The notes beneath the pieces are model-generated. The model was given only the letters and a program-made list of their open reading frames with translations. It was not told the origin of the DNA and searched no databases. Shown piece after piece: positions 39,097 to 61,538 of a DNA stretch of 64,000 nucleotides. The stretch comes from Mycobacterium mantenii (GTDB taxonomy: Bacteria > Actinomycetota > Actinomycetes > Mycobacteriales > Mycobacteriaceae). A program made the translations under genes and the position numbers. Position 1 is the stretch's first letter, and every line of letters starts with the position of its first letter. The stretch is taken from assembly GCF_010731775.1 (NCBI RefSeq), contig NZ_AP022590.1, positions 5,456,001 through 5,520,000 of the forward strand, written 5' to 3'.

Positions 39097-39393
39097 CTAG
39101 ATGTCGCTGGTGACGTACCGAGTCTTGACCGGAGGCGCGGCCAGCAAAGGCGGCAGCTCCGTCAGCTTGCCCTCGCCGGCACGAAACGCGCGGTAGGCCT
39201 CGTCGTGCTCGACCGTCTCCCACAACTCGTAGATGATCCAGTGCGCTTCGTCTTCCTCATCGACAAGCACGTCGGTGCGGACATTGCCGTCGAACGCCCG
39301 GGTGTCCTGCAGCGCCCGGCCCATGACCTCGCGTGCCGCGGCGACCTCGCCGGGCTTGATCTTCAGTTCGAGTAGCACCGTGATCGGCATCAT
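39097..39393 (-). CDS. Antibiotic biosynthesis monooxygenase (ABM)-type small protein
   Basis: A 98-residue dimeric alpha/beta-barrel-type protein (ITVLLELKIKPGEVAAAREVM, then WIIYELWETVEHDEAYRAF). The family contains quinone-forming monooxygenases and heme-degrading enzymes, but many members have no proven activity. Start ATG 39393 (or 39390) follows AAGGAG; an in-frame start further upstream was rejected. It is tail to tail with the F420 enzyme. Confidence 0.82.
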   Translation of the reverse strand: MMPITVLLELKIKPGEVAAAREVMGRALQDTRAFDGNVRTDVLVDEEDEAHWIIYELWETVEHDEAYRAFRAGEGKLTELPPLLAAPPVKTRYVTSDI

Positions 39394-39697
39394 CGTCTCC
39401 TTAATCCGGGGTTCAGCGCCCGTCACCGAGTCTAGGTAGTCGCCCCAATTCAATAGAGTGCCTCACTGTCGCGTGGCCAGGGAATTCGAGTAACGCTAAA
39501 AGTTTCCAAAGGTCGGATCCGACGGCCATCGCGATGGTAGCGTCCTCTTCGCGATAGGGGGCGCACGACGGTAGTCGAGCGGCCCCAAACAGCCGCCCGC
39601 ACAGTGCAACTCCGCCAGGTGCCATTCGCTACAGATACACGGTGGATCAAGACAATCGTCATATGAGGCCAAATCGTGTGGGTGGGAGGGGCTTCGG
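39394..39697. promoter_or_regulatory. Intergenic region upstream of the NRPS
   Basis: Here 304 bases separate the divergent ABM gene and the NRPS start. No convincing gene or strong palindrome was seen. Base composition is more AT-rich than the flanks, and GTGGGAGGGG lies just before the NRPS ATG. It should contain the NRPS promoter, but no box could be assigned. Confidence 0.4.
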
Positions 39698-42600
39698 ATG
39701 AATCCCGATGAGCGGATGCTTCCGCTGACACGGGGACAGCTGGATATATGGCTCGCGGAGGCAACCGGCCGCTTTGGTGCCAAGTGGCAGTTGGGCGTGC
39801 TTCTGCGAATCGACGGCACGATCGACCGCGGTTTGCTCGAGTCGGCGATCCGTCAAGTTGTGTACGAGGCCGAACCACTTCGCGCCGCCTTCTTCCAGGT
39901 CGACGGCCAAGTGTTCCAAAAGGTGGTTGAGTACCCGGACATTGACCTCGCGTGCCACGATCTGATGGGGTCGCAGGATCCTGCGCAGGACGCTTACCGG
40001 CTGGCGTCATCGATCCAGCAAACGCTGATGCCGCTGAGCGGCACGCTGTTTAAATTTGCGTTGCTGCAGACAAAGGTTGACGAATTCTATTTGTTCGCGT
40101 GCTGCCATCACATAGTCGTCGACGGAATCGGCCTTGCACTCGTTTGTCATCGAATCACAGATGTCTATTCTGCAATTGCTTCGGGCGCTCAGATTTCGCC
40201 TGCTTTTTTTGGTTCACTAAGAGAGCTGATCGATTGCGAGTTGGCGTACGAGGCATCCGACGATTACCTCGATGACCAGACCTATTGGACGGAAAACCCT
40301 CCGCCGGAAAGTGAATCGCGTTCCTGGTTCGCGCACGTTGCAGACGGGCGTGATCCTGGTGAGTCTTCTGCGCCGGTTCAATTAGACCCTTCCGTCGTTG
40401 CCGGGATCGACGAGTTGTCGCGGGCGCTGGGGGTGCGCCGGTCGTCCGTGATTACGGCGGCGTGCGCGCTGCTGGTGCACGGGTGTCACACCGAGGGTTC
40501 GAAGGTAGCGCTGGATTTTCCGGTAAGCAGGCGGGTACGTCCGGAGGTACAGACGGTCCCCGGAATGATCTCCGGGGTAGTGCCTCTGGTGTTCGAAGCT
40601 GCGCCGGGATCCACGGCCGCTGGTTTTTGCGCACACGTCGACGCGCGAATCCGGGAAGCGCTGCAGCATCAGCGTTTCCCGGTTCACACTGTCGAGACTG
40701 CGGGGCGTTCGCGTATCCCAGGGGAGCTGTCGAATAGGGTAGTCGTCAATTTCATTCCGGCAGCCCACATGTCGCATTTCGCCGATGCTGCGACAACGGC
40801 GACCCTGACTCACTCGGGGATCGTCGATCAATTTGGGCTGGCCTTCTTCAGGGACGAAGACCGGCTTTTTCTTACCACCCAGGGTGCCGGCCAGTTGTTC
40901 CCCGATTGTGGTGTCCGCGATTTAGCGGGGCGTTTGGAGCGGCTGTTGGCCGCCCTGATCACCGGGCCCACGCGTCGGTTGTCATCGATGGATTTGCTGG
41001 ATCAGGTCGAGCATGTCCGCCTGGATGGGTGGGGCAACCGCGCGGCGTTGACCGGCGCGGTGACGACGGCGGTGTCGGTTCCGGTGTTGTTCGCCGGCCA
41101 AGTCGCGCGGGCCCCGGAAGCGATGGCGGTTACCTGCGAAGGCCGTTCCATGACGTATCGGGAGCTGGACGAGGCTGCTAACCGGTTGGCACACTTGCTG
41201 ATTAGCCGGGGAGTGGGGCCGGGGCAGTGTGTTGCCCTGGTGTTGGAACGCTCAGCGCAGGCGATCGTGGCGATTCTGGCTGTGCTGAAGACCGGGGCGG
41301 CGTACCTGCCGATCGACCGCGCCCTGCCCGATGCCCGGATCGATTTCATGCTCACCGATGCCGCGCCGGCCGCCGCCATCACTACCGCCGGACTGGCCGA
41401 CCGGCTGGGCGGGCGTGATCTGGCGGTCATAGATGTCAACGACCCCGATGTGGACGCCCAGTCCAATACCGCTTTGCCGCCGCCGCAGCCCGACGACATC
41501 GCCTACTTGATCTACACCTCGGGCACGACCGGCGTGCCCAAAGGGGTGGCCATCACGCACCACAACGTCACCCAGCTGTTGTCGACTCTGACCCTCGGTT
41601 CGGCGCCGGGCCGGGCGTGGACCCAATGCCATTCCTATGCCTTCGACTTTTCGGCGTGGGAGATCTTCGGCGCGTTGCTAGGTGGTGGGCGGCTGGTCGT
41701 GGTGCCCGAAGAGGTGACCGCCTCACCGGAGGATTTCCACGACGTACTGATCCGCGAACAAGTTAGCGTGTTGAGCCAAACCCCTTCTGCCGCGGGCATG
41801 TTAACGCCACAGGGGCTGGAATCGGTGGCTTTGCTGCTGGGCGGTGAGCCTTGTCCGGCAGAGCTGGTCGACCGTTGGGCACCCGGGCGGGTGATGCTCA
41901 ACGCTTACGGTCCCACCGAAACCACGGTGTGTGCGGCGATCAGTGCGCCGTTGAAGCCGGGCTCGGACGTGGTGCCGATCGGTTCGCCGGTGTCGGGCGC
42001 GGCGTTGTTTGTGCTGGATGGATGGTTACGTCCGGTGCCGGCCGGGGTGGTGGGGGAACTGTACGTGGCCGGTGCCCGGGTGGGGTGCGGTTATTGGCGC
42101 CGGTCCGCACTATCCGGATCGCGGTTCGTGGCGTGTCCGTTCGGCGGGGCCGGAACACGGATGTATCGCACCGGGGATTTGGTGCGGTGGGGTGCAGACG
42201 GGCAGATGCAGTATCTGGGGCGTGCCGATGAGCAGGTCAAGGTCCGCGGGTATCGCATCGAGCTGAACGAGGTGCGGACGGTGTTGGCCGGGCTCGACGG
42301 GGTGGAGCAGGCGGTGGTGGTTGTCCGCGAGGACCGCCCCGGCGGCAAGCGTCTGGTGGGTTATGTGACCGGGACCGCCGACCCGGCCGAGATGCGCGCC
42401 GCGCTGACCGAGCGACTCCCCGCCTATATGGTCCCGGCGGCGGTGGTGGTGTTGGAGGCGCTGCCGTTGACGGTCAACGGCAAACTCGATACCCCTGCCC
42501 TGCCGGCACCGGAATACACCGATGGCGGGTATCGGGCCCCGGGCAGTGCGGTCGAGGAAATTTTGGCCGGGATTTATGCGCAGGTGCTCGGGGTCGAACG

Positions 42601-45600
42601 GGTCGGGGTGGACGACTCGTTTTTCGAGTTGGGTGGCGATTCGCTGTCGGCGATGCGGTTGATCGCGGCCATCAATGCCGGTGTGGATGCTGGCCTTTCG
42701 GTGCGTGCGGTGTTCGAGGCGCCCACGGTGGCGCAGTTGGTGCTGCGGATTGGTGAGGGCGCGGATCGGTGGCAGCCGTTGGTGGCGGGGGAGCGGCCGG
42801 CGGTGGTTCCGTTGTCGTTTGCCCAGAACCGATTGTGGTTCCTCGACCAGTTCCAAGGGCCGTCACCGGTCTATGTCATCGGGGCGGCGTTGCGGCTGCG
42901 CGGGCGGCTCGGTGCCGTTGCGTTGGGTACGGCGTTGGCCGATGTGGTGGCCCGCCACGAGAGTCTGCGCACGCTGTTCCCGGCCCCCGAAGGCATACCC
43001 CAACAGGTGGTGGTGCCGGTTGAGCGGGCCGATTTCGGCTGGCAGGTCATCGATGCCAGCGGCTGGCCGACACCGCGGTTGAATGAAGCCATCGACTCCG
43101 CTGTGCGGTACCCGTTTGATCTGGCGGTCGAGATCCCCTTACGGACAACACTTTTCCGTATCTCCGACGACGAACACGTGTTGGCGGTCGTGGTGCACCA
43201 TATTGCCGCTGATGGCTGGTCGTTGGGGCCGTTGGTGCGCGATCTGGGCGTCGCCTATGCCAGCCGGTGCGCCGGGCATGCGCCGGGGTGGGCTGCATTG
43301 GCGGTGCAGTACGCCGATTACACGTTGTGGCAGCGCACGCAGCTCGGTGATCTCGATGACAGCGATAGTCCCATCGCGCACCAACTTGGGTATTGGCAGG
43401 ACGCGCTGGCGGGGATGCCCGAGCGGCTGGAGTTGCCGACTGATCGGCCCTATCCGTTGGTGGCCGATTATGCCGGTGCCGCTGTGGCGGTGGAGTGGCC
43501 GGTCGAGTTGCAGCAGCGGGTGGCTCGGGTGGCAAGGGAGCATAACGCGACCAGTTTCATGGTGGTCCAAGCCGCGCTGGTGGTGTTGTTATCCAAGCTC
43601 AGTGCGAGTTCTGATGTGGCGGTGGGGTTCCCGATCGCCGGCCGACGTGATCCGGCGCTTGACGAGTTGGTCGGGTTTTTCGTCAACACGTTGGTGTTGC
43701 GGGTGGATCTGGCCGGTGATCCCAGTGCGGCGGAGGTGCTGGGCCAGGTGCGTCGGCGCAGCCTGGCCGCCTACGAACACCAGGACGTGCCTTTTGAGGT
43801 GCTGGTGGAGCGGCTCAACCCGACCCGAAGTTTGACCCATCATCCGTTGGTGCAGGTGTTATTGGCCTGGCAAAACAACGGCACCCCGGAACTGGGCTTG
43901 GGTGATCTGCAGATGAGCGCGTTGCCGGCCGATACCCACACCGCCCGGGTGGATTTGGCGTTCTCCCTGTCCGAACAATGGGACGAGGCCGGTGCGCCGG
44001 CGGGGATCGACGGGACGGTGGAATTCCGCACCGACGTCTTCGATGCGGCCAGCATCGAAGTACTCGTCGAGCGTTTACGGCGAGTATTAATCGCAATGAC
44101 CGCCGACCCAACGCGGCGGCTGTCGTCGATCGATGTGCTCGACGCGGCCGAGCGTGCCCGCCTGAACGAGTGGGGCAACCGGGCGGTGTTGACCCGGCCC
44201 GCACCGGCACGGGTATCGGTTCCGGTGTTGTTCGCTGACCGAGTCGCGCGCGCTCCCGAGGCGATCGCGCTGAGCTTCCAGGGCCGCTCCATGACGTATC
44301 GGGAGCTCGACGAGTCCTCAAATCGGTTGGCGCACTTGCTGATTAACCGGGGTGTGCGGCCGGGGCAGTGTGTGGCGCTGGGTTTGGAGCGCTCGGCCCA
44401 GGCGATTGCCGCGATGCTCGCGGTGTTGAAAGCGAGGGCGGCCTACCTGGCGATCGACCCCGCCCTGCCTGATGCCCGGATCGAATTCATGCTCACCGAT
44501 GCCGCTCCGGTTGCCGCTATAACTACCACCGATCTGGCCGGGCGGCTCGACAGGCACGAACTTACGGTCATCGATATTGACGACCCCGCCGTGCACACCC
44601 AACCCAGCACCGCTTTGCCGCCGCCGCACCCAGGCCACATCGCCTACCTGATCTACACCTCGGGCACCACCGGCGTACCCAAAGGGGTGGCCATCACCCA
44701 CCGCAACTTGACTCATCTAGCGGCGTCATTGCCGACGCATCTGCCGGTGGCGCAAGCATGGACGCAGTGTCACTCGTATGCCTTCGACTTCGCAGTGTGG
44801 GAGGTATGGGCTGCGTTGCTAGGTGGTGGGCGGTTGGTCGTGGTGCCCGAAGAGGTGGCCGCCTCGCCGGAGGACTTCCACGCCTTACTGATTGCCGAAC
44901 AGATCAACGTCCTCACCCAGACCCCTTCTGCCGCGGGCATGTTGTCGCCCTGCGGGTTGGATTCGGTGGCCTTGCTGCTCGGTGGCGAGACCTGCGCGGC
45001 CGAGTTGGTGGACCGCTGGGCGCCCGACCGAGTGGTGATCAACGCATACGGCCCCACCGAAGCCACGGTGTATGCATCGATGAGTGCTCCGCTTGCAGTC
45101 GGGACCGGTGAGGCACCCATCGGGTCACCGGTAGCGACCGCGGCGCTGTTTGTTCTCGACGACTGGTTGCGGCCGGTGCCGGTGGGCGTGGTCGGTGAGT
45201 TGTATGTGGCGGGCCGGGGCGTGGGGATCGGGTATGTGCGCCGGGGGGATCTGACGGCGTCGCGGTTTGTGGCGTGTCCGTTCGGTGGGGTCGGCACGCG
45301 GATGTATCGCACCGGGGATTTGGTGCGGTGGGGTGCTGACGGGCAGTTGCGGTATCTGGGGCGTGCCGATGAGCAGGTCAAGGTCCGTGGGTATCGCATC
45401 GAGCTGGGCGAGGTGCAGGCGGCATTGCTTGCGCTGCAGGGGATCGACCAGGCGGTGGTGATCGCCCGCGAAGACACGCCCGGCGACAAGCGTCTGGTGG
45501 CCTATGTGACCGGGACTGCCGATCCGGCCGAAGTGCGTATTCAGCTGGTCGAGCGGCTCCCGGCCTATATGGTGCCGGCGGCGGTGGTGGTGTTGGCGGC

Positions 45601-45829
45601 GTTGCCGTTGACGGTCAATGGCAAGCTCGACAAGCGCGCCTTGCCGGCACCGGAGTACGGCGCGCAGGCGTATCGGGCCCCGGGCAGTGCGGTCGAGGAG
45701 ATTGTGGCCGGTATTTATGCGCAGGTGCTGGGGTTCGAGCGGGTCGGGGTGGACGACTCGTTTTCGAGTTGGTGGCGATTCGCTGTCGGCGATGCGGTTG
45801 ATCGCGGCCATCAATACCACTGTGGATGA
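39698..45829 (+). CDS. NRPS segment 1: C1-A1-T1-C2-A2-T2(part)
   Basis: The start ATG 39698 gives [20 protein letters not shown], the usual start of mycobacterial NRPSs whose first C domain acylates the first residue. The C1 active site is HHIVVDG (residues 137-143). A1 shows [33 protein letters not shown] and VNGKLD. T1 has [12 protein letters not shown] with the pantetheine Ser (about residue 982). C2 has HHIAADG. A2 follows with [12 protein letters not shown]. The frame leaves the NRPS at 45761-45772, where a T5 run is T4 and a G3 run is G2 compared with sister copies, so T2 loses its GGDS motif. The last 19 or so residues are out-of-frame. C1 DNA is visibly less GC-rich than the rest. Confidence 0.9.
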
Positions 45830-47744
45830 GGGCCTTTCGGTGCGTGCGGTGTTCGAGGCGCCCACGGTGGCGCAGTTGGTGCTGCGGATTGGTGAGGGCG
45901 CGGATCGAGTGCAGCCACTGGTCGCGGGGGAGCGGCCGGCGGTGGTTCCGTTGTCGTTTGCCCAGAATCGATTGTGGTTCCTCGCCCAGCTGCAGGGTGC
46001 CTCGGCGGTCTACAACATGGCGGCGGCGTTGCGGCTGGACGGGTCCCTGAACGCCGACGCGTTGGGTGCGGCGTTGGCCGATGTGGTGGGCCGCCACGAG
46101 AGTCTGCGCACGTTGTTCCCTGCGGTCGATGGGGTTCCGCAGCAGGTGGTGGTGCCGGTTGAGCGCGCCGATGTCGGGTGCGTTGTTGATAGCACCGGTT
46201 GGGCGGTAAGCCAGCTGAACGAGGCCGTTAACGCGGCGGCGCGCTATACGTTTGATCTGGCTGCCGAGATCCCGTTACGGGCAACGCTTTTCCGTGTCGC
46301 CGACGATGAGCATGTGTTGGTGGTGGTGGTGCACCATATCGCGGCTGATGGCTGGTCGTTGGGGCCGTTGGTGCGCGATCTGGGCGTCGCCTATGCCAGC
46401 CGGTGCGCCGGGCGCGCGCCGGGGTGGGCTGCATTGGCGGTGCAGTACGCCGATTACACGTTGTGGCAGCGCACTCAGTTGGGGGATTTGGCCGATCCTG
46501 ACAGCCGGATCAACGCACAGCTGGCCTATTGGCAGGACGCGTTGGCGGGGATGCCTGAGCGGCTGGAGTTGCCGACTGATCGGCCCTATCCGTTGGTGGC
46601 CGATTATGTCGGTGCCGCTGTGGCGGTGGGGTGGCCGGCGCAGTTGCAGCAGCGGGTGGCTCGGGTGGCTCGGGAGCATAACGCGACCAGTTTCATGGTG
46701 GTCCAGGCTGGCCTGGCGGTGCTGCTGTCCAAGCTCAGTGCGAGTTCTGATGTGGCGGTGGGGTTCCCGATCGCGGGGCGGGGTGATTCAGCACTCGATG
46801 AGTTGGTGGGGTTTTTCGTCAACACGTTGGTGTTGCGGGTGGATCTGGCCGGTGATCCCAGCGTGGCGGAGGTGCTGGGTCAGGTGCGTCGGCGCAGCCT
46901 GGCCGCCTATGAGCACCAGGGTGTGCCTTTTGAGGTGCTGGTGGAGCGGCTCAACCCGACCCGAAGTTTGACCCATCATCCGTTGGTGCAGGTGTTGTTG
47001 GCCTGGCAAAACAACGGCACCCCGGAACTGGGCTTGGGTGATGTACAGGTCACGCCGTTGCCGGTCGACACCCATACCGCCCGGGTGGATTTGGTGTTCT
47101 CCCTGTCCGAACAATGGGACGAGGCCGGTGCGCCGGCGGGGATCGACGGGACGGTGGAATTCCGCACCGACGTCTTCGATGCGGCCAGCATCGAAGTACT
47201 CGTCGAGCGTTTACGGCGAGTATTAATCGCAATGACCGCCGACCCAACGCGGCGGCTGTCGTCGATCGATGTGCTCGACGCGGCCGAGCGTGCCCGCCTG
47301 AACGAGTGGGGCAACCGGGCGGTGTTGACCCGGCCCGCACCGGCACGGGTATCGGTTCCGGTGTTGTTCGCCGACCAAGTCGGGTGCGCTCCCGAGGCGA
47401 TCGCGCTGAGCTTCCAGGGCCGCTCCATGACGTATCGGGAGCTCGACGAGTCCTCAAACCGGTTGGCGTACTTGCTGTGCGACTACGGAGCCGCCCCGGG
47501 ACAATGCGTGGCGCTGCTGTTCCCCCGGTGCGCGCAGGCCATCGTGGCGATGCTGGCGGTGCTCAAAACCGGGGCGGCCTATGTGCCGATCGACCCCGCC
47601 CTGCCCGATGCCCGGATCGACTTCATGCTCACCGACGCCACGCCGATTGCCGCGATCACCACCACCGATCTGGCCGGGCGGCTCGACAGGCACGACCTTG
47701 CGGTCATCGACATCGACGACCCCGCCGTGCGCACCCAACCCAGC
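45169..47744 (+). repeat. NRPS internal repeat, copy X
   Basis: This is the first of three near-identical stretches in the NRPS gene. It runs from the C-terminal third of A2 through T2 and C3 to the N-terminal third of A3, ending just before the A3 core motif YTSGTTG. Against copy Y (48350-50924) I saw about four base substitutions plus the run-length differences in 2.6 kb. It contains the frame break at 45761-45772. Confidence 0.92.
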
Positions 47745-48983
47745 GCGGCGCTAGCGCCGCCGCAGCCTGACGATATTGCCTACCTGATCTACACCTCCGG
47801 GACCACCGGCATGCCTAAGGGCGTGGCCGTCACCCACCGCAACGTCACCCAACTCTTGGCGTCACTCGACCTCGGCTCGGCGCCGGGTCAGGTGTGGGCG
47901 CAGTTCCATTCCTATGCCTTCGACTTCTCGGTCTGGGAGATCTTTGGTGCGCTACTTGGGGGTGGGCGGCTGGTCGTGGTACCCGAAGAGGTGGCCCGCT
48001 CACCGCAAGACTTCCACGCCTTGCTGGTCACCGAGAAAGTCACCGTCTTAAGCCAGACCCCCTCGGCCTTTTATGCGTTACAACGTGCCGATGTGCTACA
48101 GCCCGCGTTGAGCGGTCAGCTAAAGCTTGAGACTGTGGTTTTCGGCGGCGAAGCGCTGGAACCACAACGCCTCGCCACATGGCTGGTCACTCACCCGGGA
48201 CTACCGAGCCTGATCAACATGTATGGCATCACCGAGACGACGGTGCATGCTTCGTTCCGGCAAATCGTCGACGGTGACGTCGAGATCAATGCCAGCCCCA
48301 TCGGGGTGCCGTTGGGTCATTTCGGTTTCTTCGTCTTGGATGGGTTGCTGCGGCCGGTGCCGGTGGGCGTGGTCGGTGAGTTGTATGTGGCGGGCCGGGG
48401 CGTGGGGATCGGGTATGTGCGCCGGGGGGATCTGACGGCGTCGCGGTTTGTGGCGTGTCCGTTCGGTGGGGTCGGCACGCGGATGTATCGCACCGGGGAT
48501 TTGGTGCGGTGGGGTGCTGACGGGCAGTTGCGGTATCTGGGGCGTGCCGATGAGCAGGTCAAGGTCCGTGGGTATCGCATCGAGCTGGGCGAGGTGCAGG
48601 CGGCATTGCTTGCGCTGCAGGGGATCGACCAGGCGGTGGTGATCGCCCGCGAAGACACGCCCGGCGACAAGCGTCTGGTGGCCTATGTGACCGGGACTGC
48701 CGATCCGGCCGAAGTGCGTATTCAGCTGGTCGAGCGGCTCCCGGCCTATATGGTGCCGGCGGCGGTGGTGGTGTTGGCGGCGTTGCCGTTGACGGTCAAT
48801 GGCAAGCTCGACAAGCGCGCCTTGCCGGCACCGGAGTACGGCGCGCAGGCGTATCGGGCCCCGGCAGTGCGGTCGAGGAGATTGTGGCCGGTATTTATGC
48901 GCAGGTGCTGGGGTTCGAGCGGGTCGGGGTGGACGACTCGTTTTTCGAGTTGGGTGGCGATTCGCTGTCGGCGATGCGGTTGA
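45618..48983 (+). CDS. NRPS segment 2: T2(part)-C3-A3
   Basis: Genuine NRPS protein begins near 45774 ([17 protein letters not shown]); the open frame before it is shadow. No start codon with ribosome site is present, so this is not an independent gene. C3 has HHIAADG. A3 has [11 protein letters not shown] and, unlike the others, [13 protein letters not shown]. Its pocket residues read DFWSVGMVHK, 8 of 10 identical to the classic Thr code DFWNIGMVHK, so Thr is the likely residue 3. The frame is lost at 48863, where one G of a G3 run is missing. Confidence 0.85.
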
Positions 48984-50924
48984 TCGCGGCCATCAATACC
49001 ACTGTGGATGAGGGCCTTTCGGTGCGTGCGGTGTTCGAGGCGCCCACGGTGGCGCAGTTGGTGCTGCGGATTGGTGAGGGCGCGGATCGAGTGCAGCCAC
49101 TGGTCGCGGGGGAGCGGCCGGCGGTGGTTCCGTTGTCGTTTGCCCAGAATCGATTGTGGTTCCTCGACCAGCTGCAGGGTGCCTCGGCGGTCTACAACAT
49201 GGCGGCGGCGTTGCGGCTGGACGGGTCCCTGAACGCCGACGCGTTGGGTGCGGCGTTGGCCGATGTGGTGGGCCGCCACGAGAGTCTGCGCACGTTGTTC
49301 CCTGCGGTCGATGGGGTTCCGCAGCAGGTGGTGGTGCCGGTTGAGCGCGCCGATGTCGGGTGCGTTGTTGATAGCACCGGTTGGGCGGTAAGCCAGCTGA
49401 ACGAGGCCGTTAACGCGGCGGCGCGCTATACGTTTGATCTGGCTGCCGAGATCCCGTTACGGGCAACGCTTTTCCGTGTCGCCGACGATGAGCATGTGTT
49501 GGTGGTGGTGGTGCACCATATCGCGGCTGATGGCTGGTCGTTGGGGCCGTTGGTGCGCGATCTGGGCGTCGCCTATGCCAGTCGGTGCGCCGGGCGCGCG
49601 CCGGGGTGGGCTGCATTGGCGGTGCAGTACGCCGATTACACGTTGTGGCAGCGCACTCAGTTGGGGGATTTGGCCGATCCTGATAGCCGGATCAACGCAC
49701 AGCTGGCCTATTGGCAGGACGCGTTGGCGGGGATGCCTGAGCGGCTGGAGTTGCCGACTGATCGGCCCTATCCGTTGGTGGCCGATTATGTCGGTGCCGC
49801 TGTGGCGGTGGGGTGGCCGGCGCAGTTGCAGCAGCGGGTGGCTCGGGTGGCTCGGGAGCATAACGCGACCAGTTTCATGGTGGTCCAGGCTGGCCTGGCG
49901 GTGCTGCTGTCCAAGCTCAGTGCGAGTTCTGATGTGGCGGTGGGGTTCCCGATCGCGGGGCGGGGTGATTCAGCACTCGATGAGTTGGTGGGGTTTTTCG
50001 TCAACACGTTGGTGTTGCGGGTGGATCTGGCCGGTGATCCCAGCGTGGCGGAGGTGCTGGGTCAGGTGCGTCGGCGCAGCCTGGCCGCCTATGAGCACCA
50101 GGGTGTGCCTTTTGAGGTGCTGGTGGAGCGGCTCAACCCGACCCGAAGTTTGACCCATCATCCGTTGGTGCAGGTGTTGTTGGCCTGGCAAAACAACGGC
50201 ACCCCGGAACTGGGCTTGGGTGATGTACAGGTCACGCCGTTGCCGGTCGACACCCATACCGCCCGGGTGGATTTGGTGTTCTCCTGTCCGAACAATGGGA
50301 CGAGGCCGGTGCGCCGGCGGGGATCGACGGGACGGTGGAATTCCGCACCGACGTCTTCGATGCGGCCAGCATCGAAGTACTCGTCGAGCGTTTACGGCGA
50401 GTATTAATCGCAATGACCGCCGACCCAACGCGGCGGCTGTCGTCGATCGATGTGCTCGACGCGGCCGAGCGTGCCCGCCTGAACGAGTGGGGCAACCGGG
50501 CGGTGTTGACCCGGCCCGCACCGGCACGGGTATCGGTTCCGGTGTTGTTCGCCGACCAGTCGGGTGCGCTCCCGAGGCGATCGCGCTGAGCTTCCAGGGC
50601 CGCTCCATGACGTATCGGGAGCTCGACGAGTCCTCAAACCGGTTGGCGTACTTGCTGTGCGACTACGGAGCCGCCCCGGGACAATGCGTGGCGCTGCTGT
50701 TCCCCCGGTGCGCGCAGGCCATCGTGGCGATGCTGGCGGTGCTCAAAACCGGGGCGGCCTATGTGCCGATCGACCCCGCGCTGCCCGATGCCCGGATCGA
50801 CTTCATGCTCACCGACGCCACGCCGATTGCCGCGATCACCACCACCGATCTGGCCGGGCGGCTCGACAGGCACGACCTTGCGGTCATCGACATCGACGAC
50901 CCCGCCGTGCGCACCCAACCCAGC
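48350..50924 (+). repeat. NRPS internal repeat, copy Y
   Basis: The second copy spans the end of A3, T3, C4 and the start of A4. The unique 605 bases between copies X and Y are the A3 substrate core. It contains frame breaks at 48863, 50283 and 50558. Correcting X by two bases and Y by three makes both 2,578 bases. Confidence 0.92.
48884..50407 (+). CDS. NRPS segment 3: T3-C4(part)
   Basis: From about 48865 the protein reads [28 protein letters not shown] (given here in two parts: linker, then T3 with intact GGDS), followed by C4 with HHIAADGWS. The frame is lost at 50283-50284, where CTCCCTG is CTCCTG. After that the correct frame continues at about 50285-50557 ([14 protein letters not shown], then the A4 N-terminus) until another one-base loss at 50558 (CCAAG to CCAG). 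The final 40 residues of this open frame are therefore not NRPS. Confidence 0.82.
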
Positions 50925-53900
50925 ACCCCATTACCGCTACCGGACCCCGAAGACATCGCCCACATCATCTACACCTCCGGGACCACCGGCATGCCTAAGG
51001 GCGTGGCCGTCGCGCAGCACAACGTCACTCAGCTATTCAACTCACTGGAAATCGGGGTGGAGCTGGCGCCGGGTCAGGTGTGGGCGCAGTTCCATTCGTA
51101 TGCCTTCGACTTCTCGGTCTGGGAGATCTGGGGCGCGCTGATGCACGGTGGGCGGCTGGTCGTGGTACCCGAAGAGGTGGCCCGCTCACCGCAAGACTTC
51201 CACGCCTTACTCGTTGCTGAACAGGTCAGCGTGCTTACCCAGACTCCGTCGGCGGTGGGGGTGCTCTCACCTGACGGGTTGGGGGCGGCGGCGTTGGTGA
51301 TCGGCGCCGAGCCCTGCCCTCCCGAGTTGGTAGATCGGTGGGCACCCGGGCGGGTCATGGTCAACGTCTATGGTCCGACCGAAACCACGATGTGGGCATC
51401 CAAGAGCACACCGCTTGCAGCGGGGTTGGGGTTCCCACCTATCGGTTCGCCGGTGACGGGCGCCGCCTTTTTTGTGCTGGACGACTGGTTGCGGCCGGTG
51501 CCGGTGGGCGTGGTCGGTGAGTTGTACCTGGCGGGCCGGGGCACGGGGTCTGGATACTGGCGCCGGTCCGCGTTGACCGGCTCGCGGTTTGTGGCGTGTC
51601 CGTTCGGTGGGACCGGAGTACGGATGTATCGCACCGGGGATCTGGTGCGGTGGGGTGCTGACGGGCAGTTGCGATATGTCGGGCGTGCCGATGAGCAGGT
51701 CAAGATCCGTGGGTATCGCATCGAGCTGGGCGAGGTCCAAGCCGCACTTGCCGAACTCGATGCGGTGGAGCAGGCGGTGGTGGTCGTCCGCGAGGACCGT
51801 CCCGGCGACAAGCGTCTGGTGGCCTATGTGACCGGGACTGCCGATCCGGCCAAAGTGCGCACCCAGCTGGTCGAGCGGCTCCCGGCCTATATGGTCCCGG
51901 CCGCGGTCATGGCATTGGCGGCGTTGCCAATGACCATCAACGGCAAGCTCGACAAGCGCGCCCTGCCGGCACCGGATTACCAGGATGCCGATCGATACCG
52001 TGCCCCAGACACTCCGGTCGAGGAGATCCTGGCCGGGATCTATGCCCAGGTACTCGGGTTCGAGCGGGTCGGGGTGGACGACTCCTTCTTCGAGTTGGGT
52101 GGCGATTCGCTGTCGGCGATGCGGTTGATCGCGGCCATCAATACCACTGTGGATGAGGGCCTTTCGGTGCGTGCGGTGTTCGAGGCACCCACGGTGGCCC
52201 AGCTGTCGCTGCGGATTGGTGAGGGCGCGGATCGAGTGCAGCCACTGGTCGCGGGGGAGCGACCGGCAGTGGTTCCGTTGTCGTTTGCCCAGAATCGATT
52301 GTGGTTCCTCGCCCAGTTCCAAGGGCCGTCACCGGTCTACAACATCGTGGCGGCGTTGCGGCTGGACGGGTCCCTGAACGCCGACGCGTTGGGTGCGGCG
52401 TTGGCCGATGTGGTGGGCCGCCACGAGAGTCTGCGCACGTTGTTCCCTGCGGTCGATGGGGTTCCGCAGCAGGTGGTGGTGCCGGTTGAGCGCGCCGATG
52501 TCGGGTGCGTTGTTGATAGCACCGGTTGGGCGGTAAGCCAGCTGAACGAGGCCGTTAACGCGGCGGCGCGCTATACGTTTGATCTGGCTGCCGAGAGCCC
52601 ATTACGGGCAACGCTTTTCCGTGTCGCCGACGATGAGCATGTGTTGGTGGTGGTGGTGCACCATATCGCGGCTGATGGCTGGTCGTTGGGGCCGTTGGTG
52701 CGCGATCTGGGCGTCGCCTATGCCAGCCGGTGTGAGGGGCGCGCGCCGGGGTGGGCTGCATTGGCGGTGCAGTACGCCGATTACACGTTGTGGCAGCGCA
52801 CTCAGTTGGGGGATTTGGCCGATCCTGACAGCCGGATCAACGCACAGCTGGCCTATTGGCAGGACGCGTTGGCCGGGATGCCCGAGCGGGTCGAGTTGCC
52901 GACTGATCGGCCCTATCCGTTGGTGGCCGATTATCGGGGTGCCAGTGTGGTGGTGCAGTGGCCGGCGCAGTTGCAGCAGCGGGTGGCTCGGGTGGCAAGG
53001 GAGCATAACGCGACCAGTTTCATGGTGGTCCAGGCTGGCCTGGCGGTGCTGCTGTCCAAGCTCAGTGCCAGTTCTGACGTGGCGGTGGGGTTCCCGATCG
53101 CGGGGCGGGGTGATCCGGCGCTCGATGAGTTGATCGGATTTTTCGTCAACACGCTGGTGTTGCGGGTCGATCTGGCCGGTGACCCCAGCATGGCGGAGGT
53201 GCTGGGTCAGGTGCGTCGGCGCAGCCTGGCCGCCTATGAGCACCAGGACGTGCCTTTTGAGGTGTTGGTGGAGCGGCTCAACCCGACGCGGTCGTTGACC
53301 CATCAACCCCTGGTGCAGGTGCTATTGGCCTGGCAGAACCTTCCCTGGCGCAGTAGCGATCCCGCCGCCCGCCTGGTATTGGGTGATCTGCAGGTCACGC
53401 CGTTGCCGGCCGACACCCACACCGCCCGAATGGATTTGGTGTTCTCACTGTCCGAACAATGGACCGAGGACGGTGCGCCGGCGGGGATCGGCGGGGCAGT
53501 GGAATTCCGCACCGACGTCTTCGATGCGGCCAGCATCGACACACTCGTCGAGCGGTTCGAGCGGGTACTGCACGCAATGACCGCCGACACCACCCGGCGG
53601 CTGTCCTCGATCGATGTGCTCGACACGTCCGAGCACACCCGCCTAGCTGAGTGGGGCAACCGCACGGTGCTGACCCAGCCCGCACCGGCACGGGTATCGA
53701 TCCCGGAGTTGTTCGCCGCGCAGGTGGTGCGTGCACCCGAGGCGATCGCACTGACCTTCCAGGACTACTCGCTTACCTACCGCGAGCTTGACGAGGCCTC
53801 AAACCGGTTGGCGCACTTGCTTTCCACCCACGGGGCGAACCCCGGTAACTGTGTGGCGCTTTTGTTGGAGCGTTCAGCCCAGGCTGTCATGGCGATTCTG

Positions 53901-55976
53901 GCGGTGCTCAAAACCGGGGCGGCCTATGTGCCGATCGACCCAGCGTCGCCGTCGGCGCGGATCGGGTTCATGCTTACCGATGCCGCGCCGGTCGCCGCGA
54001 TCACCACCGCTGATCTGGCCGGGCGGCTCGACGGGGATGACGTGGTGGTGCTTGACGTCAACGACCCCGCCGTGCGCACCCAACCCAGCGCGGCGCTAGC
54101 GCCGCCGCACCCGGACGATATCGCCTACTTGATCTACACCTCCGGGACCACCGGTGTCCCCAAAGGGGTTGCGGTCAAGCACCACAACGTGACCCAGTTG
54201 CTGACATCACTGAATGGGGGCCTGCCGCGCGCGGGGGTGTGGTCCCAGTGGCATTCGTTGGTCTTCGATGTCTCGGTATGGGAGATTTTCGGCGCGCTGC
54301 TGCGCGGCGGGCGGTTGGTCGTGGTGCCCGAAGAGGTGGCGCGCTCACCGGAAGACCTTCACGCCTTACTGGTCGACCAACGGGTCAGTGTGTTAAGCCA
54401 GACCCCTTCTGCCGCGGGAATGTTGTCGCCGTGCGGGTTGGAATCGACGGCGTTGGTGGTGGCCGGTGAGGCGTGCCCGCCCGAGTTGGTGGACCGGTGG
54501 GCTACCGGGCGGGTGATGATCAACGCCTACGGCCCGACCGAGACGTGGTACCCGGCGATCAGTGCGCCGTTGACACCTGGAGCAGGAGTGCCACCAATCG
54601 GCTCGCCCGTAGCGGGGGCGGCCTTCTTTGTGCTGGACGGATGGTTGCGGTCGGTGCCGGCTGGGGTGGTCGGGGAGTTGTATCTGGCCGGTGCCGGGGT
54701 GAGCTTTGGTTACGTGCGCCGTCCCAGCTTGACTGGGTCGCGGTTTGTGGCGTGTCCGTTCGGTGGGGTCGGCACGCGGATGTATCGCACCGGGGATTTG
54801 GTGCGGTGGGGTGCTGACGGGCAGTTGCGGTATCTGGGGCGTGCCGATGAGCAGGTCAAGGTCCGTGGGTATCGCATCGAGCTGGGCGAGGTGCAGGCGG
54901 CATTGCTTGCGCTGCAGGGGATCGACCAGGCGGTGGTGATCGCCCGCGAAGACACGCCCGGCGACAAGCGTCTGGTGGCCTATGTGACCGGGACTGCCGA
55001 TCCGGCCGAAGTGCGTATTCAGCTGGTCGAGCGGCTCCCGGCCTATATGGTGCCGGCGGCGGTGGTGGTGTTGGCGGCGTTGCCGTTGACGGTCAATGGC
55101 AAGCTCGACAAGCGCGCCTTGCCGGCACCGGAGTACGGCGCGCAGGCGTATCGGGCCCCGGGCAGTGCGGTCGAGGAGATTGTGGCCGGTATTTATGCGC
55201 AGGTGCTGGGGTTCGAGCGGGTCGGGGTGGACGACTCGTTTTTCGAGTTGGGTGGCGATTCGCTGTCGGCGATGCGGTTGATCGCGGCCATCAATACCAC
55301 TGTGGATGAGGGCCTTTCGGTGCGTGCGGTGTTCGAGGCGCCCACGGTGGCGCAGTTGGTGCTGCGGATTGGTGAGGGCGCGGATCGAGTGCAGCCACTG
55401 GTCGCGGGGGAGCGGCCGGCGGTGGTTCCGTTGTCGTTTGCCCAGAATCGATTGTGGTTCCTCGCCCAGCTGCAGGGTGCCTCGGCGGTCTACAACATGG
55501 CGGCGGCGTTGCGGCTGGACGGGTCCCTGAACGCCGACGCGTTGGGTGCGGCGTTGGCCGATGTGGTGGGCCGCCACGAGAGTCTGCGCACGTTGTTCCC
55601 TGCGGTCGATGGGGTTCCGCAGCAGGTGGTGGTGCCGGTTGAGCGCGCCGATGTCGGGTGCGTTGTTGATAGCACCGGTTGGGCGGTAAGCCAGCTGAAC
55701 GAGGCCGTTAACGCGGCGGCGCGCTATACGTTTGATCTGGCTGCCGAGAGCCCATTACGGGCAACGCTTTTCCGTGTCGCCGACGATGAGCATGTGTTGG
55801 TGGTGGTGGTGCACCATATCGCGGCTGATGGCTGGTCGTTGGGGCCGTTGGTGCGCGATCTGGGCGTCGCCTATGCCAGCCGGTGCGCCGGGCGCGCGCC
55901 GGGGTGCATTGGCGGTGCAGTACGCCGATTACACGTTGTGGCAGCGCACTCAGTTGGGGGATTTGGCCGATCCTGA
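50220..55976 (+). CDS. NRPS segment 4: A4-T4-C5-A5-T5-C6(part)
   Basis: True NRPS sequence starts near 50560 ([21 protein letters not shown]). A4 has [11 protein letters not shown] and [14 protein letters not shown]4, C5 (HHIAADG), A5 ([13 protein letters not shown], with an unusual Trp-Tyr-Pro after the ETT position) and T5 are complete, then half of C6. A four-residue-class difference at C5 ([13 protein letters not shown]) marks it as less related to the other C domains. The frame ends at 55904, where five bases present in the sister copies are missing, and the stop follows at 55976. Confidence 0.86.
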
Positions 55977-57144
55977 CAGCCGGATCAACGCACAGCTGGC
56001 CTATTGGCAGGACGCGTTGGCGGGGATGCCTGAGCGGCTGGAGTTGCCGACTGATCGGCCCTATCCGTTGGTGGCCGATTATGTCGGTGCCGCTGTGGCG
56101 GTGGGGTGGCCGGCGCAGTTGCAGCAGCGGGTGGCTCGGGTGGCTCGGGAGCATAACGCGACCAGTTTCATGGTGGTCCAGGCTGGCCTGGCGGTGCTGC
56201 TGTCCAAGCTCAGTGCGAGTTCTGATGTGGCGGTGGGGTTCCCGATCGCGGGCGGGGTGATTCAGCACTCGATGAGTTGGTGGGTTTTCGTCAACACGTT
56301 GGTGTTGCGGGTGGATCTGGCCGGTGATCCCAGCGTGGCGGAGGTGCTGGGTCAGGTGCGTCGGCGCAGCCTGGCCGCCTATGAGCACCAGGGTGTGCCT
56401 TTTGAGGTGCTGGTGGAGCGGCTCAACCCGACCCGAAGTTTGACCCATCATCCGTTGGTGCAGGTGTTGTTGGCCTGGCAAAACAACGGCACCCCGGAAC
56501 TGGGCTTGGGTGATGTACAGGTCACGCCGTTGCCGGTCGACACCCATACCGCCCGGGTGGATTTGGTGTTCTCCCTGTCCGAACAATGGGACGAGGCCGG
56601 TGCGCCGGCGGGGATCGACGGGACGGTGGAATTCCGCACCGACGTCTTCGATGCGGCCAGCATCGAAGTACTCGTCGAGCGTTTACGGCGAGTATTAATC
56701 GCAATGACCGCCGACCCAACGCGGCGGCTGTCGTCGATCGATGTGCTCGACGCGGCCGAGCGTGCCCGCCTGAACGAGTGGGGCAACCGGGCGGTGTTGA
56801 CCCGGCCCGCACCGGCACGGGTATCGGTTCCGGTGTTGTTCGCCGACCAAGTCGGGTGCGCTCCCGAGGCGATCGCGCTGAGCTTCCAGGGCCGCTCCAT
56901 GACGTATCGGGAGCTCGACGAGTCCTCAAACCGGTTGGCGTACTTGCTGTGCGACTACGGAGCCGCCCCGGGACAATGCGTGGCGCTGCTGTTCCCCCGG
57001 TGCGCGCAGGCCATCGTGGCGATGCTGGCGGTGCTCAAAACCGGGGCGGCCTATGTGCCGATCGACCCCGCCCTGCCCGATGCCCGGATCGACTTCATGC
57101 TCACCGACGCCACGCCGATTGCCGCGATCACCACCACCGATCTG
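54737..57144 (+). repeat. NRPS internal repeat, copy Z
   Basis: The third copy spans the end of A5, T5, C6 and the start of A6. It matches 45259-47672 of copy X; after correcting missing bases both are 2,416 bases. At 55747-55755 it has the variant GAGAGCCCA shared with C5 (52592-52600) instead of GAGATCCCG, hinting at local conversion between copies. It contains frame breaks at 55904 and 56250-56288. Confidence 0.9.
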
Positions 57145-59895
57145 CGTCCGCGACTGGACAGCTGGGATGTGCCGGTGGTGGATGCCTGCGATGGCGCTCT
57201 CGGGGCTCAGCCCCGTACCGCCCTCGCGGTGCCGGCGGCGGAGAACATCGCCTACATCATCTACACGTCGGGTACCACGGGAGCCCCGAAAGGTGTTGCC
57301 ATTCCGCACTACAACGTCGCCTGGCTGATCGAGTCACTTGATCAAGCGCTGCCACCGGGGCGCGTGTGGACGCAGTGTCATTCCTCCGCCTTCGACTTTT
57401 CGGTCTGGGAGATCTGGGGTGCGCTGCTGGAGGGTCGGCGGTTAGTGGTGGTGCCGGAGTCGGTGGCCGCCTCGTCGGAGGACTTCCGCGCGTTGCTGGC
57501 CGCAGAAAAGGTCAGCGTGTTGACCCAGACACCGTCATCGGTGGCGATGCTGCCGGCGGAGGGGTTGGAGTCGGCTGCGTTGGTGGTGGCCGGGGAGGCC
57601 TGCCCGACTGAGGTGGTGGAGCGGTGGGCGGCGCCGGGGCGGGTGATGGTCGATGCCTACGGACCGACAGAAACCACGGTATGTGCCTCGATCAGTACGC
57701 CACTGGTCCCGGGTTCGGCGGTGCCGATCGGTTCGCCGATCTCGGGTGCCGCAATGTTCTTGCTGGACAAGTGGTTACAGCCGGTGCCGACCGGTGTAGT
57801 CGGAGAGTTGTACCTGGCCGGTCGCGGAGTGTCCGTAGGGTACGTGCGCCGGGCCGGGTTGACGGCGTCGCGATTTGTGGCCTGTCCGTTCGGCGGGCTG
57901 GGAACACGGATGTATCGCACCGGCGACCTGGGTCGGTGGGGTGATGACGGGCAGGTGCAATACGTTGGGCGCGCCGATGAGCAGGTCAAGATCCGCGGTT
58001 ACCGCATCGAACTCGGCGAGGTGCAGGCGGCATTGCTTGCGCTGCAGGGGATCGATCAGGCGGTGGTGATCGCCCGCGAAGACAGGCCCGGCGACAAACG
58101 GCTGGTGGGCTACATCACCGGGACCGCCAACTCTGCCGAGATCCGCGCTCAGCTGACCAACCGGCTCCCGCCCTACATGATCCCGACCACGGTGATGGTG
58201 CTGGAGACACTGCCGCTGACACCCAACGGCAAACTCGACACCCACGCCCTGCCGGCACCCGAATACCAGGATGCCGACCGCTACCGCGCCCCGGCCAGTC
58301 CTCTCGAGGAAACCCTGGCCGGCATCTACGCCCAGGTACTCGGGCTCGAGCGCGTCGGGGTCGACGATTCCTTCTTCGATCTCGGTGGCGACTCGCTGTC
58401 GGCGATGCGCCTGATCGCCACCATCAACACCAGCCTGGATGCCGACTTGGCGGTGTCCACCGTGTTCCACGCGCCGTCGGTGTCATGCCTGAGTCAGCAG
58501 TTGGAGAGCGATGGCGGCTCGATGGAAGCAACCCCGCTTACCGGCCCCAGCTTTGCGTCCGTGCACGGCCGCAACGCCGTTGAGGTCTACGCGGGCGATC
58601 TCACGTTGGACAAGTTCATCGACGCCGCAACCCTGAACGGCGCGCCGACGCTGCCCGGACCGAGCGCCGAGGTGCGGACAGTCTTGCTGACCGGGGCGAC
58701 CGGTTTCCTTGGGCGGTATCTGGCCCTGCAGTGGCTCGAGCGCATGGAATCGGTCGGCGGCATCCTGATCTGTCTGGTGCGAGCGGAGTCCAACGAAGAT
58801 GCGCGGCGGCGTCTGGAAAAGACGTTCGACAGTGGCGACCTGAAACTATTACGCCACTTCCAGGAGTTGGCTGCCGATCATCTGCAGGTCATTGCCGGCG
58901 ACAAAAGCGAGGCGAACTTGGGCGTGGACGAGCAGACCTGGCAGCGGCTGGCCGCCACCGTCGATCTGATCGTCGATCCCGCGGCCGTGGTCAGCAGCGT
59001 TCTGCCCTACGCCGAGCTGTTCGGGCCCAACGTAGTGGGGACCGCCGAACTGATCCGGTGCGCTCTCACTACGAAGCTCAAGCCTTACATCTACGTGTCG
59101 ACGGCCAACGTGGGCGACCAGATTGAGCCGTCGGCGTTCACCGAGGATGCCGACATCCGCGTCATCAGCCCCGCGCGGATCAACAACGGCGGCAACGTCA
59201 ACGGCTACGGAACCAGCAAATGGGCCGGCGAGGTGCTGCTGCGCGAGGCCAACGACCTGTGCGGGCTGCCGGTCACAGTGTTCCGTTGCGGCATGATCCT
59301 GGCCGGCACCACTTATGCGGGTCAGCTGAACGTGTCGGACATATTCACTCGGATGGTGCTGGGCCTGGTAGCCACCGGCATAGCGCCGACTTCGTTCTAC
59401 CCCGTTGGCGCCCAAGGTAATCGGCGACGGGAACACTTTGACGGGTTGCCCGTCGAATTCGTCGCCGAGGCGATCACCACGCTGGGTGCTCGGGCAATCG
59501 ATGGGTTCGACACCTATCACGTGATGAATCCGCATGACGACGGCATCGGAGTCGACGAGTACGTCGACTGGTTGATCGAGGCCGGTTACCCGATCGAGCG
59601 CATCGATGACTTCGGGGAGTGGTTACAGCGGTTTGAGACCGCCCTGCGTGCCCTGCCGGAACGACAGCGTCAGCACTCGCCGCTGTCGGCGTTGCCGTTG
59701 CGAAACTCCAATCATTCGATCGAATTTCGGCCGGCACGACCGGCGCGCGGCTTCCTCGCGTCGGCCGACCGATTCCGTGCTGCGGTGCAAGAGGCGAAAG
59801 TCGGCCCTGACAAGGACAGCCCGGACATCCCGCACGTCTCGGCACCGATCATCATCAAATATGTGACCGACCTACAGCGGCTCGGATTGCTTTAG
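55732..59895 (+). CDS. NRPS segment 5: C6(part)-A6-T6-reductase
   Basis: NRPS protein resumes near 55907 ([17 protein letters not shown]). Between 56250 and 56288 three single-base losses scramble about 12 residues but restore the frame. A6 ([12 protein letters not shown]) and T6 ([12 protein letters not shown]) follow. The C-terminal 400 residues are a NAD(P)H thioester reductase: [13 protein letters not shown], Tyr-Lys motif [24 protein letters not shown]. It closely resembles the reductase domain of carboxylic acid reductases such as FadD9, so release is as an aldehyde, or an alcohol after a second reduction. Stop at 59895. Confidence 0.88.
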
Positions 59896-59930
59896 GCCGC
59901 TTGAGGACGTTCGCATACGGCTATTTCGCG

Positions 59931-61181
59931 TCACGAATCAAGCTTCGCCAGAGCGGCATCGGCAATGGCGAATACTTCATCAGCGTCATAGAGGTCCCTG
60001 GCGAATGTGACATTGCCGGTGAGGCGGCCGTGCAACCTGAATACAGTGAAAAGAACCGTTTGGGATTTGGTGGTGCCGGTGCCGGACTCGACCTGAGCGC
60101 AGATTGCCGGAGATTTGATGCTACCGATGTTTGTCACGGCGCAGGAAACGTCCTGAAACGGTCCGCGGTGCAGGACAGGAAGCGACGCAGCACGGGCACC
60201 GGTTCTTAAAAGTTTCTGCTGGTTAGCGGACAAGAAACCGATGACCCGGGTGAGCCAGTAATCGATTCCCCAGCGAAACCAGCGAAATTGCCGGGCGACC
60301 TGTGAATGCAGCGGCGCTCCGCGCCGCAATTGCACAGACAGGCTGCCGGTGAAATTGCCGGGTACGGTATGTGGCAAACCGGGTGAATAGCGGGCGAGAT
60401 CGGTGGGGACGGCGATACAGACGCGCGATTTCTCGGGGTGGGCCGAGAGCATTGCTTCGCCGACCGCGAGGCAAACGTATTGGTGAAGCGAGAGACCAAG
60501 GGCGTGGGCCTTGTCCAGGATCCGAGTCGTCTCCTGCTCAGAGAATCGATACGTCCGGGACGCGTAGCCCTTATCGTGGGGAATCGGCGTCTTGCCATGG
60601 GTGAGGTCGACTGTTTTGCGGGCTTGCTTCAGACCCGCCCTTGCGAGAAAGCTGAGGAAATAGAACGGCAACAGAGTCAGTCCGACTAGAGGGGCGGTGG
60701 AATGGAAGCGGCCCGCTGTATGGTCCGCTTTCTGGTCAACAGTGGCGCATTCACCGTCGGTGGTGGCGAGCCAATATTCGATCCACTGCAGGGCGCCGCG
60801 TCCGCTGGTGAACGCGTGGCTCATCTGGAAGCAGACTTCCCTATCCCCGACCCGCGAGACCTGAATGGGTAACGGGGGCCGCAGGGCATGAGCGGGCAAA
60901 AGTAATTCCTCGAAGGAGAATGGCTGTGAGAAGTGTGCGCGCTGTTGGTCGAGGGCGGCGGTGAGCTCGGCAGAATCGACAGATTCCCACGAATAGGACT
61001 TACCAATAGGTTTGAGGCCTACTTGTAAGGCAGCGTTTCGCCGCACCAGAGATTCGTAGGAAGCCCACAAGCGATCGGGATCGTAGTCTTCGCGAAATTT
61101 GACCACGAATGCGATGTCTTCGCCACGCAGTACCGGCTCCAGTGCGTGGATGAGCAAGCTGCCAACACGGCCTACGTCCAT
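59931..61181 (-). CDS. Condensation-like acyltransferase (PapA/WES-like), degenerate active site
   Basis: A 416-residue protein of the CoA- or carrier-dependent acyltransferase fold shared by NRPS C domains and PapA proteins. The usual HHxxxDG motif appears as SHAFTSG (MSHAFTSGRGALQWIEYW), keeping the second His but with Ser for Asp. Later LHQYVCLAVGEAML and VPTDLARYSPGLPHTVPGNFTGSL match the C-terminal half. Start ATG 61181 has GGAGAG 5 bases upstream; the frame stays open to 61496 but that part is poor in family features and contains a hairpin. It is convergent with the NRPS, 35 bases away. It may esterify the lipopeptide or another lipid. Confidence 0.75.
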   Translation of the reverse strand: MDVGRVGSLLIHALEPVLRGEDIAFVVKFREDYDPDRLWASYESLVRRNAALQVGLKPIGKSYSWESVDSAELTAALDQQRAHFSQPFSFEELLLPAHALRPPLPIQVSRVGDREVCFQMSHAFTSGRGALQWIEYWLATTDGECATVDQKADHTAGRFHSTAPLVGLTLLPFYFLSFLARAGLKQARKTVDLTHGKTPIPHDKGYASRTYRFSEQETTRILDKAHALGLSLHQYVCLAVGEAMLSAHPEKSRVCIAVPTDLARYSPGLPHTVPGNFTGSLSVQLRRGAPLHSQVARQFRWFRWGIDYWLTRVIGFLSANQQKLLRTGARAASLPVLHRGPFQDVSCAVTNIGSIKSPAICAQVESGTGTTKSQTVLFTVFRLHGRLTGNVTFARDLYDADEVFAIADAALAKLDS

Positions 61182-61538
61182 ATCGCTCTCCAGGTTGATC
61201 GGCAAAGCGCGCACGATGGCTTTTAAGCGTACCGGCTCATCAGGCCCAGTTGAGAACTCTTGGTATACCTCAAAATATGGGCCGGTCGGCCCGCCCCGGG
61301 CCGTGAATACCTGACCGCTACGGCTTCCGAACGGATGGTGTTCCACGACTGGGGCCGACCACCATGGTGCAGCCGGTTCACCGACTCGGTGTCGGTGAAC
61401 CGATGCTTGCGCGCGGGCGCGCCACCAAGCGTCCCGGTCGCTTCCGAGAATGCGGTTTCCACTTTTCGGAAACCTGTTATACGGTTCAGTGAGCAATATT
61501 CTGTTGGCGGATTGTGGACGATCCTGGAGGATCCCTCG
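61182..61538. promoter_or_regulatory. Intergenic region with perfect inverted repeat
   Basis: This region separates the divergent acyltransferase and DUF35 genes. At 61374-61402, CGGTTCACCGA is followed by a 7-base spacer and its exact complement, an 11-bp stem. No T-run follows, so an operator or RNA hairpin is more likely than a terminator. CTGGAGG at 61524-61530 is the ribosome site of the DUF35 gene. Confidence 0.6.

Follow-up and report, generated by a model that had tools for sequence, protein, structure and literature searches.

Why should three stretches of one nonribosomal peptide synthetase (NRPS) gene be almost identical over 2.41 kb, with borders inside adenylation (A) domains whose substrate-binding cores are unlike each other? 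We addressed this question in a 64,000-nt stretch of the Mycobacterium mantenii genome (assembly GCF_010731775.1, contig NZ_AP022590.1, positions 5,456,001 to 5,520,000), called the window below. Domain scans (Pfam, NCBIfam) run on five open frames revealed a six-module NRPS gene with a condensation (C) domain in first place and a thioester reductase in last (Table 1). An initial annotation of the near-identical stretches, here copies X, Y and Z, had offered two explanations, namely exchange of A cores into a common chassis, under which it was titled, or homogenization of that chassis by gene conversion. The second proved better supported and the first weaker, given tracts bordered in C domains, several ages of chassis and another NRPS gene in which the chassis appears converted with the cores in place. 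Our results suggest that X, Y and Z probably arose by recent and repeated gene conversion among the modules of a single gene, i.e., by concerted evolution.

Near-identical copies and unrelated A cores

All three copies share one layout, comprising an A C-terminal part, a thiolation (T) domain, a C domain and an A N-terminal part, and each runs from past the pocket region of one A domain to just 5' of the TSGTTG motif of the next. Over the common 2.41 kb, X and Y differ by 4 substitutions, X and Z by 2, and Y and Z by 6. The initial annotation had drawn these borders correctly to within 1 nt and had placed them inside A domains, before TSGTTG and after the pocket, which held for all six ends: the left borders of X, Y and Z lie 511, 556 and 599 nt past the motif, and the right borders 49, 49 and 121 nt ahead of it. 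Each end falls where a core swap would break, around the substrate-binding core with the linker and the A C-terminal part kept. Site shuffling of the pairs holding the copies excluded chance (0 of 1000 shuffles). Substitution-free tracts reached up to 960 nt, and in nine of the ten unit pairs no shuffle matched the observed tracts (0 of 1000 each; 17 of 1000 for units 1 and 4).

Trees were then compared for the different parts of the modules, using 27 NRPS regions (134 tips for cores, 133 for the flanks on the N-terminal side of the core, or N-flanks, and 72 for T-C blocks). The window cores spread over the whole core tree, and in none of the six cases was the nearest relative found in the window. 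In contrast, all five T-C blocks of the gene fell in a single window-only clade and all six N-flanks in a clade of their own, and the flanks on the other side (C-flanks) lay within an eight-tip clade that included two outsiders. T-C blocks and N-flanks thereby show the grouping by gene that concerted evolution would give, and the repeats of the gene are also over-alike in tracts, as it would make them. This tree comparison had been proposed in the initial annotation and came out as predicted there, with T-C blocks tight and A cores scattered; it is unable to separate core exchange from chassis conversion. Among the regions fetched, the best matches outside the gene were 77.5-80% for the cores and about 75-86% for the other parts. 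The A cores between the copies are old and mutually unrelated.

The A3 core is a mosaic, since its positions ~47853-48013 are 92-98% like A4, and its part from ~48083 onwards has no good sibling match and finds its best relatives in other NRPSs (79-86%). The pocket residues were assigned by reference to motifs, and only the contrast from core to core was used. On this assignment, the first three residues would be Asp-Phe-Trp in five of the six cores, including A3 and A4, and Asp-Val-Trp in A5, and the later residues would differ between A3 and A4. The A3/A4 identity hence seems to continue into the core up to the point where specificity diverges. The A3 pocket also resembles the presumed threonine code. 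Separately, just after the GPTE motif (~54543-54560), A5 appears to be one residue shorter than its siblings and unlike them.

Two further identical tracts were detected in the gene (Table 1). Three of their four ends lie within C domains, so the borders of identity are not all at a core, and only the remaining end, early in A2, falls where a core swap would break. Core exchange alone would not make tracts bordered in C domains. The chassis parts also differ in age. C5 matches the copies identically in its middle only, and distances to the closest sibling in the N-flank tree ranged from 0.003 (A3 and A4) through 0.093 (A6), 0.199 (A2) and 0.359 (A5) to 0.395 (A1).

Tracts and cores in other NRPS genes

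We further examined 25 other NRPS regions, three of this genome and 22 of other genomes, which were picked from matches to the C3 copy (a choice that favours relatives of that C domain) and from long contigs; G000d, a region with a single A3 motif and no module pairs, was left out. In 59 of 319 module pairs, distributed over 16 of the 25 regions, ≥ 240 nt, contiguous or in several pieces, were alike at ≥ 98%. These 59 pairs included 14 with a near-identical flank and a core below 85%, and none with a core at ≥ 98% and both flanks below 85%. A comparison of 15,875 module pairs between genomes, made without preselection by core and covering the regions fetched, found no case of a conserved chassis with a replaced core, which counts against core exchange, and five cases in which the core was conserved and one part of the chassis had diverged.

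The orthologous NRPSs of two genomes, G065 and G102, gave a sense of direction. Their cores are kept module by module (83-95%, vs 38-80% between modules), whereas modules 1 and 2 of G065 have a common tract of 1446 nt at 99.9% that is only 66-91% like its orthologs in G102. Siblings are hence closer than orthologs in this gene, which is a different one from that of the window. The same two C domains of G102 also show patchy likeness, up to 100% in one 100-column bin. This is the one pair that polarises a recent tract well, and it indicates that the chassis, in its C domain, was homogenized and the cores stayed orthologous.

Comparable tracts were seen elsewhere in unbroken frames, namely in G161 (6188 codons), G316 (4665) and G006 (16,070); in G060, G083, G046, G146 and G320, the open frames shift within such tracts or close to them, which may reflect either true gene boundaries or errors. 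Two modules of G161 have 620 nt and 2.73 kb in common at 99.5-99.8%, flanking a different A core of ~420-460 nt. This is the cleanest core-only difference that we found, cleaner than that of the window; an ortholog of this NRPS was sought with one core in 396 genomes, and the search was dropped with a best full-length match of 77%. The open frame of G006, which carries NRPS modules, contains an 11.9-kb stretch repeated at 99.6%.

For the window gene itself, the C3 copy was searched against 396 genomes of the genus (at most two candidates scored per genome), and no ortholog was found among the matches listed, the best of which reached 79% over full length and 80% over part. The stretch from A6 to the reductase, searched against 41 genomes (relatives and the own genome), yielded no ortholog among the matches listed either; the best were 76% in the own genome, 75% outside it over the length of the stretch, and 77% over half of it.

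Probable gene conversion and its rivals

We propose that homologous recombination between the repeated modules would overwrite the A C-terminal part, T, C and the A N-terminal part. Conversion would stop near or in the A core, where divergence between the modules may hinder pairing and where an overwritten core would select another amino acid and thereby alter the product. The outcome would be a uniform chassis in which the six cores retain old, separate identities. The identity of the copies, their borders, the discordant trees, the tracts bordered in C domains and the polarised example in another NRPS gene are what we observed. We infer from these that X, Y and Z arose by the process seen in that other gene, that the positions of the borders are partly due to selection on the product, and that conversion, not unequal crossing-over, was at work.

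The strongest competitor is A-core exchange, in which a recent module duplication was followed by recombination of different A cores, derived from other modules or from other genes, into the shared chassis, with a change of product. The X, Y and Z borders fall where published exchanges break (between motifs A2 and A4 and close to A5; Calcott et al. 2020, PMC7486941). The scattered cores and the A3 mosaic, whose later part resembles A domains of other NRPSs, agree with it as well. We nevertheless consider this explanation unlikely. No donor was found among the regions fetched, where the best match of each core stays within the range given above, and conversion is favoured because of the C-domain borders of the further tracts and the several ages of the chassis parts, as well as the polarised G065/G102 case and the tract counts in the 25 other regions and the 15,875 pairs.

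Several observations weigh against conversion with the cores spared. Module duplication followed by core exchange leaves much the same footprint, and the A3 mosaic may record an exchange of part of a core. Some cores have not been spared: of the 59 tract-bearing pairs, 13 are also alike at ≥ 98% in the core, and in G316 a tract of 3.8 kb passes straight through a core. Siblings were closer than orthologs for 5 of 20 C domains, for a single N-flank and a single C-flank out of 20 each, and for none of the 21 cores, and this last count is partly so by construction because the ortholog sets were chosen by core similarity; three of the five C-domain cases have a margin of 0-2 points and belong to one gene. 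One of the five inter-genome pairs with a conserved core, G000a@20948 vs G247@4622 (core 89%, flanks 73 and 77%), is more suggestive of a core transferred from one gene to another, and this probable moved core in the M. mantenii genome speaks for core exchange as a process. Because the searches gave no ortholog for the window gene, we also infer the direction of events there.

G000a@20948 (near 769948) and G000b@14083 are NRPS genes of the same genome with cores 87.7% alike. G247@4622 is the ortholog of G000b@14083, and G000a@20948 is hence a candidate for core exchange between genes.

The reading frame raises the matter of assembly quality. The NRPS frame changes four times (45618-45829, 48884-48983, 50220-50407 and 55732-55976), on every occasion inside a copy. 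Outside the copies the frame is unbroken, and elsewhere this genome has open NRPS frames as long as 10,452 aa. Comparison of the copies gave 8 distinct length differences, of which none is divisible by three, vs 6 distinct substitutions. The breaks are probably consensus errors left in repeats, a better fit than decay, and given these breaks the consensus inside the copies is doubtful. Programmed frameshifting was put aside because the frame changes sit at different places in the copies. All this would suit an assembly artefact, in which mis-assembly, or a consensus that took in reads of the wrong copy, produced the copies or made them near-identical. Such an origin is nonetheless very improbable: an assembly duplication would bring shared flanks with it, and is unlikely because each copy adjoins a different core; similar tracts also occur in other genomes, some in the unbroken frames of G161, G316 and G006. 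Recent tandem duplication of whole modules, with cores then diverging by mutation under selection, is scarcely tenable despite the even repeat spacing of 3.13-3.18 kb and is already contradicted by the tree, as the cores lie apart in it and are no closer to each other than to those of other genes, not as alike as the near-identical chassis, and mutation cannot scatter cores while the chassis gains almost no substitutions.

The locus and its relation to known systems

The host genome is one contig of 6.19 Mb, in which the NRPS gene is carried on a 22-kb island (Table 1). Eight nearest relatives, ranked by fadB, were fetched for comparison. In seven of them the site is empty, with position 39390 followed by 54-58 nt and then by position 61446, and the eighth holds ~1.5 kb of other sequence without an NRPS. 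By-eye inspection of the island ends showed no direct repeats, the 10 flanking open reading frames (ORFs) scanned included no integrase, and Rfam and tRNA scans of the NRPS locus gave no matches. A PapA-like gene lies next to the NRPS gene (59931-61496; a weak acyltransferase match, 27.4 bits vs a cut-off of 30). The first-place C domain, the reductase exit and this neighbour suggest that the product may be an acylated hexapeptide aldehyde or alcohol.

Table 1 Features of the NRPS locus, in positions of the window
Feature	Position	Strand	Remarks
Copy X	45169..47744	+	A2 C-terminal part, T2, C3, A3 N-terminal part
Copy Y	48350..50924	+	A3 C-terminal part, T3, C4, A4 N-terminal part
Copy Z	54737..57144	+	
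A2 core	44657..45168	+	Left neighbour of X; unlike siblings
A3 core	47793..48349	+	Between X and Y; two-part, start A4-like, rest without good sibling match
A4 core	50973..51493	+	Right neighbour of Y
A5 core	54138..54736	+	Left neighbour of Z
A6 core	57265..57785	+	Right neighbour of Z
Further identical tract, C2 end and A2 start	43960..44235	+	Matches same place before A3, A4 and A6
Further identical tract inside C5	52349..52873	+	Matches C3, C4 and C6; both borders in C domain
NRPS gene, six modules	39698..59895	+	Known here only as separate open frames; Pfam, NCBIfam, ORF list
Terminal thioester reductase domain	58690..59895	+	NAD_binding_4 and TIGR01746; last open frame
Island with NRPS and PapA-like gene	39391..61445		Absent here from 8 nearest relatives fetched

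The gene offers a natural case of one chassis with several unrelated A cores, and as such bears on the choice of A-domain cut sites in NRPS engineering. Chassis conversion and core swapping leave nearly the same footprint unless orthologs polarise them, which matters for claims that core swaps dominate NRPS evolution. It is conceivable, if rather doubtful, that the apparent A-core recombination hot spot of mycobacterial NRPSs is largely the edge of continual chassis conversion; were this true, many events interpreted elsewhere as core swaps may instead have converted all but the core. Judged by title and start of abstract, the literature matches listed contained no description of the same pattern in mycobacterial NRPSs, most subscription journals lying outside the coverage.

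Both mechanisms and this border position are already published. Calcott et al. 2020 (PMC7486941) locate hot spots of recombination between motifs A2 and A4 and close to A5, in their motif names, and the X, Y and Z borders lie in the same two zones; their material is from Pseudomonas, Bacillus and Streptomyces, and the breaks are interpreted there as A-domain substitution. Baunach et al. 2021 (PMC8097286) describe A-core subdomain swapping with breakpoints inside the A core and retention of both the C-A linker and the A C-terminal part, as here. In that study, however, the core moves, judged against orthologs, whereas the recent homogenization here lies in the chassis and neither an ortholog nor a recent donor was found. 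Booth et al. 2022 (PMC9205934) also report recombination inside A domains, in the desotamide/wollamide assembly lines, and warn that gene conversion hides duplication history; theirs is one core exchange, which is biochemically supported. Medema et al. 2014 (PMC4256081) attributed the within-gene clustering of NRPS and polyketide synthase (PKS) domains to gene conversion, with divergent, functionally distinct domains protected. The domains of the window gene cluster within the gene in the same way, but where that work used whole-domain trees of named clusters, the tracts here are resolved to the base and the spared unit is the A core. The window gene is an unusually clean new example of such evolution.
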